Source: Ktedonobacteraceae bacterium
GTDB taxonomy: Bacteria; Chloroflexota; Ktedonobacteria; Ktedonobacterales; Ktedonobacteraceae
NCBI GenBank assembly: GCA_035653615.1
Contig: DASRBN010000021.1
Span: 1 to 64,000 of the forward strand
DNA: 64,000 bases
Direction of reading: 5' to 3'
The notes below the pieces were generated by a model that saw only the letters and a program-made list of their open reading frames with translations, was not told where the DNA came from and searched no databases. The translations under genes were made by a program, and so were the position numbers. Positions within the stretch are counted from its first letter, which is position 1. Each line of letters begins with the position of its first letter. Shown piece after piece: positions 6,092-42,371 of this stretch.

Positions 6092-6165
6092 CATGTCATT
6101 CTGAGCGGAGCGAAGAATCTTAGCTGGACTCGACGCAGATTCTTCGCTCCGCTCAGAATGACATG
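6092..6165. repeat. Family A palindromic element, copy A1
   Basis: Two perfectly complementary 29-nt arms (6092-6120 and 6137-6165) around a 16-nt loop. The core reads CATTCTGAGCGGAGCGAAG; both arms carry the same compensatory change relative to the other copies (GCGGAG/CTCCGC rather than GCGCAG/CTGCGC). Confidence 0.85.
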
Positions 6166-17878: not shown

Positions 17879-17919
17879 GTCCCTAATGAATTTTTCCAAC
17901 CGAATCGAGGAATCCGTGC

Positions 17920-18055
17920 GTGTCATTCTGAGCGCAGCGAAGAATCTCGGTGCGCCTGGACGCAGATTCTTCGCTGCGCTCAGAATGACACGGCTTCGGT
18001 CAGAATGACACGCACGGATGCGCTCAGAATGACACGGCTTCGGTCAGAATGACAC
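17920..18055. repeat. Family A palindromic element, copy A4, with tandem extra ends
   Basis: Perfectly complementary 28-nt arms at 17920-17947 and 17964-17991, followed by two tandem units of CGGCTTCGGTCAGAATGACA (about 17991-18010 and 18033-18052) separated by a partial arm. The right end of the element has been multiplied. Confidence 0.85.
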
Positions 18056-20630: not shown

Positions 20631-21341
20631 ATGGAACCAGATGAGGAGAGAACGAGAGTGTCCAATATACGCGGCGTTATTCTTGATGTTGATGGCACGC
20701 TGGTCTTAAGCAATGAAGCGCAGGCAAAATCCTGGGTGGAGGCCATGGCCGATTTCGGATATTATGTTTCCGTCGAAAGAATAGGCCCATTAGTCGGTAT
20801 GGGTGGCGACAAAGTCTTGCCTGAGACAACCGGGCTGCAAAAAAATAGTGAAGACGGCATAAAGATCGATGCAAGACGCGCGGAAATCTTCAAACAAAAA
20901 TATCTTCCAACGCTGCAAGCCGCGCCCGGCGCCAGAGATTTGCTACAGCATATGCGCGAAAAAGGTCTCAAGCTTGCAGTCGCCAGTTCCGCTAAAATGG
21001 ATGAATTGAAACCCCTGTTGCAGGTGGTGGGTGCCGCTGACCTCGTGCAAGAAGAAACTTCCGCCAGCGACGCCAGCCAATCCAAACCGAACCCCGATAT
21101 TATCCAGGTGACGCTTCAACGCATCGGCCTGCCTGCTGACCAGGTTCTTATGCTCGGCGATACGGTTTACGATATTGAAGCGGCGGGCAGAGCTGGCATC
21201 GGCACCATCGCCCTGCGTTGTGGCGGCTGGTCTGATCGCGACCTTAAAGGCGCACTTGCTATTTACAATGATCCTGCCGATTTGCTAGAACACTACGACA
21301 CTTCGCCCCTCGGAGATTCCTCGTCGGGCCGGTCATTCTGA
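20631..21341 (+). CDS. HAD-superfamily phosphatase (HAD-IA type)
   Basis: 236 aa. The nucleophile motif is ILDVDGTLV, motif II the Ser of AVASS, motif III the Lys of SKPNPD, and motif IV LMLGDTVYDIEAA, all in order, as in phosphoglycolate phosphatase and beta-phosphoglucomutase relatives. GTG 20658 has a better ribosome-binding site (GAGGAGAG 20643-20650) than ATG 20631, and the HAD fold starts just after it, so the true start may be 20658. The last five residues and the stop codon are contributed by a family A palindrome (SSGRSF-stop). The substrate is unknown; it is not the HAD-IIB type known as mannosyl-3-phosphoglycerate phosphatase. Confidence 0.85.
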   Translation: MEPDEERTRVSNIRGVILDVDGTLVLSNEAQAKSWVEAMADFGYYVSVERIGPLVGMGGDKVLPETTGLQKNSEDGIKIDARRAEIFKQKYLPTLQAAPGARDLLQHMREKGLKLAVASSAKMDELKPLLQVVGAADLVQEETSASDASQSKPNPDIIQVTLQRIGLPADQVLMLGDTVYDIEAAGRAGIGTIALRCGGWSDRDLKGALAIYNDPADLLEHYDTSPLGDSSSGRSF

Positions 21342-21398
21342 GCGCAGTGAAGAATCTCTGGCGGCACGCGGATTCTTCACTGCGTTCAGAATGACCGG
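21329..21398. repeat. Family A palindromic element, copy A5
   Basis: 28-nt arms at 21329-21356 and 21371-21398. The arms share a compensatory change (GCAGTGAAG with CTTCACTGC), and the only mismatch is a G-U-type pair. The left arm overlaps the end of the HAD gene and supplies its stop codon. Confidence 0.88.
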
Positions 21399-31446: not shown

Positions 31447-31801
31447 GGAACACAACCCCTTAACTGAAAGCGAACCAGAAACATCCTGGCCCGGCACTAT
31501 TGTATGCGCAACAGTCAAGATGTTTTATCGTGCTATTGCTTATGTTTTGATATGTACTGTTTCATAGTATACTATCAATTTCATATGATTTGGTAGGGCC
31601 TTGAATTGCTGTGATAGATCAATCCAGATGTGTAAACCCTCAAGAAGCCCCGCTTTAATGGTCTTTTTGGTATACAGTGGGCTTACAATGAAAGCGAGAA
31701 AAAAAGTTTTTGTAGGAAAATTATGCTATGCTCTTCCATCCAGCCCTTTATCAGATATTTGCAAATTCTTGCCAAGTATCTGATTTTTATTGCCAAATAT
31801 A
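31447..31801. other. AT-rich intergenic region between the MMPL gene and the SHOCT/DUF4097 operon
   Basis: No gene is supported. The two units diverge here. Only the consensus promoter at 31802-31830 stands out on the right side. Confidence 0.4.
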
Positions 31802-31830
31802 TTGACAATTTCACCAATCCATGTTAATAT
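31802..31830 (+). promoter_or_regulatory. Consensus promoter of the SHOCT/DUF4097 operon
   Basis: TTGACA (31802-31807), 17-bp spacer, TAATAT (31825-31830), 88 bp before the first gene. Among the best sigma-70-like matches in the window. Confidence 0.75.
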
Positions 31831-31918
31831 CTGCATAGAGTTAACGATAATTGCCAGGCAATCGAAGAGAAACGTCAAGAAGACCGGTCTTTGACATAAC
31901 AAGCCAGGAGGCAAGGCA

Positions 31919-32137
31919 ATGAATTTTAATGTCAACCATTATGATAGATTGGCGGTTGAGCATCGTCAAGGGATACAGCATGAGAGCGAACAGCAGCATT
32001 TGCTGGCATGCCTTCCCCATCATCTTATGGCTCGTCGAGCGGCCGGTCGGTTGGGCGTTCTACTCGTAACCCTGGGCACCAGATTAGAGAAGCTTGACCG
32101 GCGCAGTGAGACGGTGGCTTATGATCTGGGAAGATGA
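31919..32137 (+). CDS. 72-aa protein, first gene of the SHOCT/DUF4097 operon
   Basis: Short basic protein, rich in His and Arg, with no recognised family. The central part LMARRAAGRLGVLLVTLGTRLEKL could form one amphipathic or membrane-associated helix. CAGGAGG at 31905-31911 gives a strong start, and a consensus promoter lies 88 bp upstream, so it is almost certainly translated. It precedes the DUF2089-like gene by 41 bp. Confidence 0.7.
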   Translation: MNFNVNHYDRLAVEHRQGIQHESEQQHLLACLPHHLMARRAAGRLGVLLVTLGTRLEKLDRRSETVAYDLGR

Positions 32138-32178
32138 GCGAACCAAGAACATGAAGATGGATTTAGGAGGAATGTAGC

Positions 32179-32538
32179 ATGCATCCTATTATTACACGCG
32201 ACCCGGTGAGTGGCAACGAATTGATTGTGACCCGCCTGGAATGTCCCCAGAGCGGCATTGTGATCGAGGGGCAATTCAGCCTGGGTTGGATCGGTCGTTT
32301 GAGCCGCGAGCAACTTGATTTTGTCGAGTTGCTGGTGAAGAATCGCGGAAACATCCAGAAACTGGCCGCGGACCTGGATATCGCCTATAATACCGCGCGC
32401 AGTCGTCTAGACGAGATCGTGACCGCGTTGGGTGGAACGCCGGAGAGCAATGGCCGCGTTGACCGTCGCTTAATTCTGGACCGCCTCGCTTCCAAAGAGA
32501 TCAGTGTAGAGGAAGCTATGCGCTTGCTGAGAGGTTAA
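32179..32538 (+). CDS. DUF2089-family protein with SHOCT-like C-terminus
   Basis: 119 aa. The N-terminal part (DPVSGNELIVTRLECPQSGIVIEGQF) resembles the degenerate zinc-ribbon start of DUF2089, with one Cys left; the middle LSREQLDFVELLVKNRGNIQKLAADLDIAYNTARSRLDEIVTALG is a helix-turn-helix, and the end RLILDRLASKEISVEEAMRLLRG is a SHOCT-like helical pair. DUF2089 proteins are commonly found next to envelope-stress DUF4097 genes and may regulate them. Strong AGGAGG. Next gene starts 4 bp after the stop. Confidence 0.82.
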   Translation: MHPIITRDPVSGNELIVTRLECPQSGIVIEGQFSLGWIGRLSREQLDFVELLVKNRGNIQKLAADLDIAYNTARSRLDEIVTALGGTPESNGRVDRRLILDRLASKEISVEEAMRLLRG

Positions 32539-32542
32539 TATC

Positions 32543-32995
32543 ATGATCACTGCTGGCGATGAGCGCGGCGATACGCCGGGAGGTTTTTACAGATTGGATC
32601 TGTATGCAGGTAGTACACTGTCAGGGTCAACCTCGGAGCGCAATCGCATTCTGATGATGGTCGAATCTGGACAAATTTCGGCAGTGGAAGCCGCGCAACT
32701 ACTGGATGCGCTGCAATCCCAACGCGAGCGAGCGGGGGAGCGCAACTCGAACCGCACGCTACGTATCTGGATGTCCGATATGACGACCAGGCGCAAAAAA
32801 TACAATATGACCGCGACTCTGCCAATCAACCTGATCGGCGCGTGCCTGCACCTGCTGGGGCGCCTTGTGCCGCAATTGAATAACAACACTATAGAAGACT
32901 TATTGCGCACCATCGAGAGTGGTGCCACAGGTCGCCTGCTGGATTTGCAAGACCTGGAAGAAGGCAAACGTGTAGAAATTTTTGTCGAGCGATAA
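32543..32995 (+). CDS. SHOCT-like domain protein of the DUF4097 operon
   Basis: 150 aa. Residues about 32-60 (SERNRILMMVESGQISAVEAAQLLDALQSQ) are the short helical SHOCT-like motif found at the start of YvlB-type proteins. The rest (TLRIWMSDMTTRRKKYNMTATLPINLIGACLHLLGRLVP, then a helical end) matches the strand-plus-helix region that in some YvlB/DUF4097 proteins follows that motif. No signal peptide. It is 4 bp from the preceding gene and 15 bp from the next. Function unknown; oligomerisation with its neighbours is suggested by the shared motif. Confidence 0.75.
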   Translation: MITAGDERGDTPGGFYRLDLYAGSTLSGSTSERNRILMMVESGQISAVEAAQLLDALQSQRERAGERNSNRTLRIWMSDMTTRRKKYNMTATLPINLIGACLHLLGRLVPQLNNNTIEDLLRTIESGATGRLLDLQDLEEGKRVEIFVER

Positions 32996-33010
32996 ACGAA
33001 GGAGAAAACG

Positions 33011-34795
33011 ATGCAGCAGACTTTTCCTACCGGCGATGAACCACGAGTGATTATTGCGCAGGCAAACGGCGACTTGAGCGTGCGCGGCTGGGATGGGCAG
33101 TCCATCAAGATCGAAACCGATGGGCGCGTGAGCGACCTGCACCAGGAAGGTGATACGCTGATGGTCATCGACTGTGATAGCGATATTAACTTGATGGTGC
33201 CTTTCAATACAGAAATTCGAGTGACGAGCCAGGATGGAGATGTTTCGATCACACAGGTACGTCGTGTCGAGTTGGAGGATATCAACGGCGATGTGGTGCT
33301 GGAAGACATCGGGGTAAACGCAGAATTGGCTCGTGAAGCCGTCGCATTAACGAATCTTGCCGCCGATGTAAGTGTAAAGAATGCGCCTGCGCTGCGCTCT
33401 CGTGGCGGCATTGGCGCAGACGCGGTACTCAAAGACGTGGCGATCATTGAAATCGAGGCCGTTGGTGCTGACCTGGCGCTTACCAATGCCGAAACCGTCG
33501 TTATTGGTACCGTTGGTGGAGATCTGGATGTAGAGGATATCTCGCACGCCCTGAGTTGCGGCACTATCGGAGGCGATTGCAAAGTTGAGCAGAGTGTTGA
33601 TGCTGAGCTTACATTTGGCAATATCGGCGGGGATGTACAGGTCGAAGGCGCGGCCAGCATCCAATTGGGGAGTGTCGGAGGCGATTGCGAACTACAGGAT
33701 ATCCAGGGTGCCGTTGAAGTCGGTAACATAGGAGGCGATGGCAACTTTGATGGGGTCGGTGGAAACTTACAGGTCGGTAGTATCGGCGGCGATGCGGATT
33801 TAGAGAGAATACAGGGGGCTATCGAGGTGGGCAGCATCGGCGGTGACCTGTCCCTGGAGGCGGCATTCCCTGCCAGCAGCCATACGCGCTTGAATGTTGG
33901 CGGCGATGCCAGTATCCGGTTGCCGGATAATCCCAACCTGAGCATTCAGGCCGCGGTTGGTGGCGACGTATCAGGACAATCTATCTCCTCTAGCGGTCAT
34001 GGCAACCTGATCAACCTGGTCTATGGTGAAGGCGCGGCCAGGCTTGAAGTAAGTGTTGGTGGTGACCTGGATTTGCACGGCAACGGAAAACCGCGCAGCA
34101 GTAGTATGAGCAGTTCATGGGGTGATTTTGGCAACGAAATGGCCCAACTGGGGCTTGAGATGGGAAAGCTCGGCCAGGATTTAGGGCGCGAACTGGCTTC
34201 TGCGTTCAGTGGTATCAACTGGTCGAAAGGTCCCAACTGGGGCGACGAGATTTCGCGCAAGGTTGAGGAGCGCGTGCGCCGCGCGCAGCGTAAGGCCGAG
34301 GAAAAAGCGCGCGATGCTGAGAGACGGGCCCGCCATGCCAACGAGCGCGCGGCTCGCGTGCGAGTACGTGTCAATGATCGCGAATGGCAGCTCGATCCTG
34401 AACGGCTGGAGCGGCTCAAGGAACAGGCTCGCAAAGCCGCGACCGAGGGCGTATCTGGAGCGTTGGAGGCCGTGGAACGGGCTGTAAGCAATTTGCGTAT
34501 CCCCAACTCACCAAAGCCACCAACTCCGCCTTCGGGCTTGAACGTGCCGCCAGTCCCGCCGGTTCCACCGGTTTCCCCGGTGCCGCCAGTCCCACCGGTA
34601 AATCCGATGACCGGGCAGGCTAACTTTGGGTCTCAAGGTGAGGGACCGGCCCAGCAGAGTAACGGTGGCGCGCAAGGCGCATCGGATACAGACGAGCCGA
34701 ATCTGGAGCAGGAACGCGAAGCCATTCTGCGCATGATCGCCGAAGGGCGCATCTCGCCAGAAGAGGGAGATCTATTGCTCGAAGGGCTGGGTTAG
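33011..34795 (+). CDS. DUF4097-family beta-helix protein with C-terminal SHOCT-like motif
   Basis: 594 aa, no signal peptide or membrane helix. Residues about 1-360 are beta-solenoid repeats of roughly 20-24 residues, each marked by (I/V)GGD (for example GSIGGDADLE, GNIGGDGNFD, GSIGGDLSLE), as in DUF4097 proteins. Then come a helical, Ala/Arg/Glu-rich coiled coil (about 410-470, RKVEERVRRAQRKAEEKARDAERRARH), a Pro-Val-rich linker (PPVPPVPPVSPVPPVPP, about 515-535) and the end EREAILRMIAEGRISPEEGDLLLEGLG. The last motif recurs in the two preceding genes. Probably a self-assembling cytoplasmic scaffold linked to envelope stress. Followed by a long hairpin. Confidence 0.85.
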   Translation: MQQTFPTGDEPRVIIAQANGDLSVRGWDGQSIKIETDGRVSDLHQEGDTLMVIDCDSDINLMVPFNTEIRVTSQDGDVSITQVRRVELEDINGDVVLEDIGVNAELAREAVALTNLAADVSVKNAPALRSRGGIGADAVLKDVAIIEIEAVGADLALTNAETVVIGTVGGDLDVEDISHALSCGTIGGDCKVEQSVDAELTFGNIGGDVQVEGAASIQLGSVGGDCELQDIQGAVEVGNIGGDGNFDGVGGNLQVGSIGGDADLERIQGAIEVGSIGGDLSLEAAFPASSHTRLNVGGDASIRLPDNPNLSIQAAVGGDVSGQSISSSGHGNLINLVYGEGAARLEVSVGGDLDLHGNGKPRSSSMSSSWGDFGNEMAQLGLEMGKLGQDLGRELASAFSGINWSKGPNWGDEISRKVEERVRRAQRKAEEKARDAERRARHANERAARVRVRVNDREWQLDPERLERLKEQARKAATEGVSGALEAVERAVSNLRIPNSPKPPTPPSGLNVPPVPPVPPVSPVPPVPPVNPMTGQANFGSQGEGPAQQSNGGAQGASDTDEPNLEQEREAILRMIAEGRISPEEGDLLLEGLG

Positions 34796-34804
34796 AGCCT
34801 GATT

Positions 34805-34864
34805 ACCGATGGCCAGAGAAGCCTGGTAAACCGCATGGTTTGCCAGGCTTCTCTGGCCATCGGT
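34805..34864. repeat. Long hairpin ending the SHOCT/DUF4097 operon
   Basis: 28-nt arms (34805-34832 and 34837-34864) with one G-U-type pair and a 4-nt loop GCAT, starting 10 bp after the stop codon. No U tract follows. Confidence 0.88.
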
Positions 34865-35112
34865 GATTATCGTATCAGTGATGTGGCTGTGGTGGCGGGG
34901 AAGGCTTGTGCCCCTGTACATGGGGGGATAATCTTGTAGCCTTCTTCCCATCACTTGAAATATGAGCTTTTCGGCTAAAATCAAAGCAGATGACGTACAA
35001 TTGTGATATAACATATCTAATATGTGCATAACACAACAGATTTCCTGGTGCCGAGTTATCTGTTTATGCAAATGCATACATATCCACGAATTTTCATATA
35101 AAAGGAGAAAAT
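34865..35112. other. Promoter region of the tricorn-like protease gene
   Basis: No gene seen. It holds a palindrome ACATAT-CTA-ATATGT (35011-35025), preceded by ACAATTGT and GATATAAC, about 90 bp before the start codon; a possible operator over a -10-like element. Confidence 0.4.
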
Positions 35113-42013: not shown

Positions 42014-42371
42014 TTCATACCTACTGGAAGCGAGAGCAAATCGGCGCTTTTCCTACATATGCTGCTCATTCCGGCGCAACATATCGGGAGTGGCGCTATT
42101 TTTTTTATTTCGTAAACCTGCGCAACTCATTGTGCCCCCTGTGCTAAACTCGAGATGCGCTGGCAGGTACTCGAATGTGGGGAATCCCTTGTAGCTTACA
42201 TAGGTGTAGGTTTTTGGTTAGTACTGACCCTGGGCGTGTCATTGTGAGTGCAGCGAAGAATCTGCGCCCGACCACAGATTCTTCGCTGCGCTCACAATGA
42301 CATGCCCAGAACGGCAAGAAATCTACCTGTGTAAGGTCCCTTGTGGTCGCCGGCAAGTTTCGCCTGGTGAA
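42014..42371. other. Intergenic region carrying copy A7 of the palindrome
   Basis: No gene seen. The only marked structure is the family A element at 42232-42307. Confidence 0.5.
42232..42307. repeat. Family A palindromic element, copy A7
   Basis: 33-nt arms at 42232-42264 and 42275-42307. The arm positions that differ from the consensus (CATTGTGAG and CTCACAATG) have changed together, and the only two non-Watson-Crick positions are both G-U-type pairs. Confidence 0.88.

Follow-up and report, generated by a model that had tools for sequence, protein, structure and literature searches.

One and the same short motif occurs in the products of three successive genes in the DNA analysed here, and one of these proteins is a regulator. 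This raises the question of why a DNA-binding protein should share a part with its operon partners, and how the operon itself is controlled. The window, i.e. the whole stretch that was analysed, comprises 64,000 nt of a Ktedonobacteraceae genome (assembly GCA_035653615.1, contig DASRBN010000021.1, positions 1 to 64,000). All three genes are on the plus strand, with gaps of 4 and 15 bases between them, and a fourth, small gene precedes them:

31919-32137, plus strand: small first gene, 72 aa, recognised by homologues and third-codon-position bias, no Pfam family
32179-32538, plus strand: DUF2089 regulator gene, 119 aa, with a degenerate zinc ribbon (aa 9-37), an HTH (aa 41-86) and a SHOCT-like hairpin (aa 95-118)
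32543-32995, plus strand: small-protein gene, 150 aa
33011-34795, plus strand: Toastrack (DUF4097) protein gene, 594 aa
32461-32532, plus strand: SHOCT-like motif of the regulator (Pfam PF22746, whole-genome scan, profile-profile alignment)
32636-32725, plus strand: SHOCT-like motif of the small protein (Pfam PF22746, whole-genome scan)
34712-34789, plus strand: SHOCT-like motif of the Toastrack protein (Pfam PF22746, whole-genome scan)

The first-pass annotation had named a DUF2089-like regulator and a DUF4097 protein, and both identities hold according to Pfam. The regulator scored 62.3 bits for the DUF2089 HTH domain in the PF09862/PF22747 test (cut-off 33.4) and 36.9 bits for the zinc-ribbon sequence domain PF22747 (cut-off 27.6), and the Toastrack protein reached 29.8 for PF13349 (cut-off 22.9). 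The quoted motif strings are present exactly, at the ends of proteins 1 (the regulator) and 3 (the Toastrack protein) and near the start of protein 2 (the small protein). Their description as SHOCT-like is borne out by PF22746 (SHOCT-like_DUF2089-C), which has a curated cut-off of 27 bits: protein 2 (34.1 bits, E 1.8e-8) and protein 3 (29.7 bits, E 4.4e-7) are above it, and protein 1 is slightly under it (23.4 bits, E 4.4e-5). When the protein 1 family was aligned with the protein 2 family, profile against profile, precisely the motif segments were paired (E 2.7e-6, probability 88.5%), which supports the sub-threshold motif of protein 1. In the whole 6.6 Mb genome, PF22746 was found only in the three operon copies and in one weak match.

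The motif had been taken for a single shared helix, and this had to be corrected. The AlphaFold models of proteins 1 and 2, which are of medium confidence and single chains only, predict a two-helix hairpin, formed by residues 96-104 and 110-118 in protein 1 (mean pLDDT 79) and by residues 25-41 and 47-66 in protein 2, where it is the region of highest pLDDT. The regulator hairpin also resembles the small subunit of exonuclease VII (XseB) weakly (E 0.006-0.007); these scores are below the cut-offs and membership was rejected.

A survey of 80 named DUF2089 loci from Chloroflexota, Bacillota, Poribacteria and Spirochaetales revealed how regularly the motif, hereafter called the tag, accompanies DUF2089. 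It is present in 73 of the 80 DUF2089 proteins, and at least one further tagged gene follows downstream in every locus with at least 3 kb of downstream DNA (61/61), two or more such genes being found in 36 of these 61. Among the same 80 loci, none of 986 upstream ORFs on the same strand and none of 2,328 ORFs on the opposite strand carries it. DUF2089 was found in 50 of 61 related genomes, and 65 of the 76 above-cut-off PF22746 matches in these genomes are located within 5 kb of a DUF2089 gene. The rule that the downstream partner is tagged holds across phyla, as does the restriction of the motif to DUF2089 operons. Conservation of the gene order, a check set beforehand by the first-pass annotation, is also evident: DUF2089, the small SHOCT protein and a Toastrack protein with C-terminal SHOCT-like motif follow each other in 19 of 20 same-family loci, so that DUF2089 and Toastrack share one operon in the window and in these 19, the twentieth being interrupted by a contig end. 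DUF2089 genes with SHOCT-tagged partners also recur in other Chloroflexota, in Bacillota, in Poribacteria and in Spirochaetales.

Could the likeness of the motifs be due to chance or to the generic composition of amphipathic helices? With its length of about 25 residues the motif is short, and the family-specific HMM built from protein 1 alone gave no convincing match to the other two proteins. However, Pfam, the profile-profile alignment and the cross-phylum results of the 80-locus survey contradict a chance origin, which we regard as ruled out for practical purposes.

The tagged partners are of various types, including Toastrack proteins with the tag at the N- or the C-terminal end, a helical-repeat protein and a protein with membrane helices. 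That each partner retains the same tag while its remainder varies would fit the assembly of the products into one complex. Two observations on gene content may be added. Second DUF2089 copies in relatives (L049-L052) lack a Toastrack gene and are located 3' of a SHOCT-tagged protein that is composed of helical repeats of roughly 30 residues each. Further, in L084 (G022) and the same genus g13 a second Toastrack-like protein, which also has its SHOCT-like motif at the C-terminus, is encoded far away from DUF2089 and unlinked to it.

This kind of operon is already published. Ravi et al. 2024 (PMC11237479) describe a DUF2089 protein that combines a zinc ribbon, an HTH and a SHOCT-like terminus, together with Toastrack in a four-gene context, and the likeness to the window extends to the Toastrack partner and to a tag at either partner end. 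The window is a variant which differs in three respects: the cysteine pairs are lost, so that the zinc ribbon is degenerate, an extra first gene is present, and there is no linked membrane gene (PspC or LiaI-LiaF-TM), such a gene being reported for variants of the context but not for all. Three PspA homologues are encoded elsewhere in the genome, and PspC was not found in it. Two features are new with respect to the known context, namely how strict the tag rule is in different phyla and a row of repeats, probably sites for the regulator, at even distances over the operon promoter; neither a repeat operator nor a statement that all partners are tagged was found in the covered part of PMC11237479. 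Among the seven papers that a full-text search yielded for DUF2089, this one alone, judged from titles, abstracts and counts, treats it as a subject, and the literature searched contained no functional study of DUF2089 operons.

Other known systems resemble the window less closely. The yvlABCD operon of B. subtilis, with YvlB, likewise combines a SHOCT-like domain and a Toastrack scaffold in an envelope-stress operon, but it differs in its membrane proteins, in PspC and in its control by sigma-W, which is described as at least partial, and DUF2089 is unmentioned in the covered parts of its descriptions. Protein 2 weakly matches the start of the model of enterococcal LiaX (liaXYZ), inside the SHOCT-like segment. 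However, its score of 12.9 bits is far below the cut-off of 350 bits (NF038025) and the window operon has no two-component system; membership in LiaX or LiaG was rejected. The classical SHOCT domain (PF09851, PMC3581485) is also a short domain of two helices that, as in the window, mostly occupies one end of a protein, but it is a separate Pfam family from PF22746.

What could the tag do? Ravi et al. (PMC11237479) propose membrane anchoring for SHOCT-like domains, and a few tagged partners indeed have membrane helices. On this explanation the hairpin would be a membrane- or envelope-targeting tag that brings the proteins to the inner face of the membrane, where they need not touch each other. 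Nearly all tagged proteins, however, as well as all four proteins of the window operon, have no predicted membrane helix, and a DNA-binding regulator would need a further reason to bear a membrane tag. We consider membrane targeting as the role of the tag unlikely, although deserving attention. Alternatively, the hairpin could be a peptide by which all tagged proteins dock to one further protein such as RNA polymerase, a chaperone or a protease, in which case they would be its clients and not members of one complex. YvlB is strongly enriched, among the most enriched proteins, in an Mfd pull-down from B. subtilis in which RNA polymerase subunits are also present (PMC8318588), a link between Toastrack and transcription that is unexplained. 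A general docking tag should, however, occur beyond DUF2089 operons, and the clustering of 65 of 76 copies within 5 kb of DUF2089 makes this explanation quite improbable. The explanation we prefer is that the tag probably mediates contacts among copies of the regulator and between the regulator and its partners.

Upstream of the operon, a promoter and a row of repeats overlap:

31802-31830, plus strand: sigma-70-type promoter TTGACA-17-TAATAT, inside the array; an equivalent promoter is visible in relatives
31748-31856, plus strand: probable operator array, with conserved offsets in 16 same-family regions and a putative binding protein

The promoter, which had been claimed as the operon's own, matches the consensus at 10 of 12 positions. 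The array consists of the units TTATCA at 31748 (imperfect), TTGCCA at 31769, TTGCCA at 31790, TCACCA at 31811 and TTGCCA at 31851, the first four of which are direct repeats 21 bp apart. The motif [AT][CT]NCCA recurs in 16 upstream regions of the family at fixed offsets from the -35 hexamer, mostly -33, -12, +29 and +50, with a spacing of about 21 bp or multiples of it; in the window, position +9 is occupied too. Altogether there are 43 such sites as compared to 11.7 +/- 3.3 in shuffles, and 0 of 500 shuffles reached 43, the half-site motifs having been defined after inspection of the sequences. Only the autocorrelation assumes no motif, and here 21 bp ranks first in the window's family (z 5.5). 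The 65 control intergenic regions of the same family contain 0.55 sites per region and not a single pair at 20-22 bp.

Similar rows were detected outside the family. In 37 Bacillota regions 21 bp again ranks first (z 15.4), while Bacillota control regions also have a 21-bp excess (z 5.5), alongside excesses at further multiples of three, and this probably stems from coding sequence. In other Chloroflexota a spacing of 31-32 bp is strongest, with 21 bp also present. When 32 Bacillota promoters were aligned, the half-site TT[AG]A occurred at -42 in 11, at -33 in 8, at -21 in 24, at -12 in 20 and at +9 in 9 cases, the chance expectation being 0.7-1.2 per position and the alignment on a TTGA-containing -35 box creating a bias towards TTGA-like spacing. 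At +9 the half-site is present in 9 of 11 other Chloroflexota. The array was found independently in the window's family and in the Bacillota, in register with the -35 box, and we regard both the operon and the array as well supported.

Which protein binds the array is suggested by a parallel change in protein and DNA. All 24 same-family DUF2089 proteins have the HTH motif AYNTA and none of them has the zinc-binding CxxC pairs (0/24), while nearly all others have SYPTV together with CxxC pairs, at least two such pairs being present in 78 of 80 SYPTV-type proteins of the named loci. The window regulator is, as judged by HTH homology, a degenerate DUF2089 relative, for which we do not claim that it is a zinc protein. 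In the same family the half-site is likewise altered, from TTRA to YNCCA. Since HTH motif and half-site differ in the same family, DUF2089 may well be the protein on the array; this is the best indirect evidence for such binding, although the change is a single evolutionary event and counts once. The HTH fold resembles LuxR-type and sigma region 4 domains in a weak match. On the other hand, the 21-bp repeats could be bound by another regulator or reflect a DNA-shape feature of a strong promoter, with DUF2089 acting elsewhere, and AT-rich promoters can indeed carry phased tracts. Yet in two phyla the array accompanies DUF2089 operons and keeps the same register, it is absent from the control regions of the window's family, and its half-site differs where the HTH motif of DUF2089 differs. 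This alternative appears to us rather doubtful.

Elsewhere in the genome, the pattern of three array copies is matched perfectly at one place only, and in each relative the pattern of two copies with TTGA yields just a few scattered places. A large regulon was rejected on these grounds, and autoregulation is the likely mode of control.

Taking DUF2089 as the binding protein, we propose the following model. DUF2089 would bind the direct repeats, which follow each other every two helical turns (21 bp) and extend over the -35 box and the spacer, and the bound protein would hold a strong promoter repressed; repression of its own promoter is suggested by the combination of a near-consensus promoter with sites that overlap these two elements. 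The C-terminal hairpin of DUF2089 would link its copies to each other and to the equivalent hairpins of the small protein and the Toastrack scaffold. Free scaffold or small protein, engaged or released for instance where the membrane is under stress, could then alter the occupancy of the regulator and thus set expression. By analogy, the operon is probably an envelope or membrane stress module, because the related proteins YvlB and LiaX act at the envelope: YvlB interacts with PspA and LiaH (PMC9239133), and LiaX controls membrane remodelling (PMC11601895). The signal would accordingly be envelope stress. Against the model speaks that self-association of the classical SHOCT domain was tested and not supported by the authors (PMC3581485), that no protein of the operon has a predicted membrane helix, that PspC was not found in the genome, and that the confidence of the AlphaFold models is medium and the HTH fold match weak. 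For a self-regulated DUF2089-Toastrack operon with cooperative repression and competition of the partners via the tag we estimate a probability of roughly 45%.

It is tempting to speculate further that DUF2089 is a widespread repressor whose sigma-region-4-like HTH recognises rows of -35-like sites spaced by 21 bp. Its subunits would be kept in register by a SHOCT-like hairpin, and scaffold and effector proteins would bear this hairpin too in order to compete for the repressor and titrate it. We hold this wider proposal to be unlikely as it stands; if true, it would describe a circuit wired by one shared two-helix tag. DUF2089 operons are found in many Chloroflexota and Bacillota, and a precise candidate operator together with a strict tag rule makes the DNA target, the sign of control and the partners directly testable. 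The operon also offers an experimental handle on the role of the SHOCT-like domain, be it pairing or membrane anchoring.

The 72-aa gene between the promoter and the DUF2089 gene was overlooked in the first-pass annotation. Of the 20 same-family loci, 13 have a homologue upstream of the DUF2089 gene, at a distance of about 1.4 kb in L045; no copy was found in the other 7, and the gene has no match in Pfam. A model built without the window's copy recovers it with E 1.3e-12, and differences are mostly at third codon positions in three of four pairs of relatives. An upstream ORF in L064 was considered as a further homologue and is unsupported once left out of the model. Paralogues exist elsewhere in the genome (G000:C19:151400 and G000:C35:25771); one of them adjoins a regulator that reads as WYL-type from its sequence, a pairing also found in G031 (L083).

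The small protein is composed of the N-terminal SHOCT-like hairpin and a C-terminal domain for which no convincing solved relative was found. Its first part (32543-32640) adds about 25-30 N-terminal residues that most relatives lack and for which the structure prediction has low confidence. The Toastrack protein contains an Ala/Arg-rich helical stretch and a Pro-rich linker before the C-terminal SHOCT-like motif.

The long hairpin claimed for the end of the operon was found as well:

34802-34867, plus strand: long hairpin at the end of the operon, with arms of 31 nt and a loop of 4 nt

It is not a standard intrinsic terminator, as it has no T-run and was missed by the terminator scan, and it is not a dispersed repeat, its sequence being unique in the genome. 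Several relatives have long hairpins of different sequence at the same place. Four other hairpins in the window (6092-6165, 17919-17992, 21329-21398 and 42230-42309) share arms near GTCATT(C/G)TGAGCG..GAAGAATC and constitute a dispersed repeat family that is unrelated to the operon hairpin.
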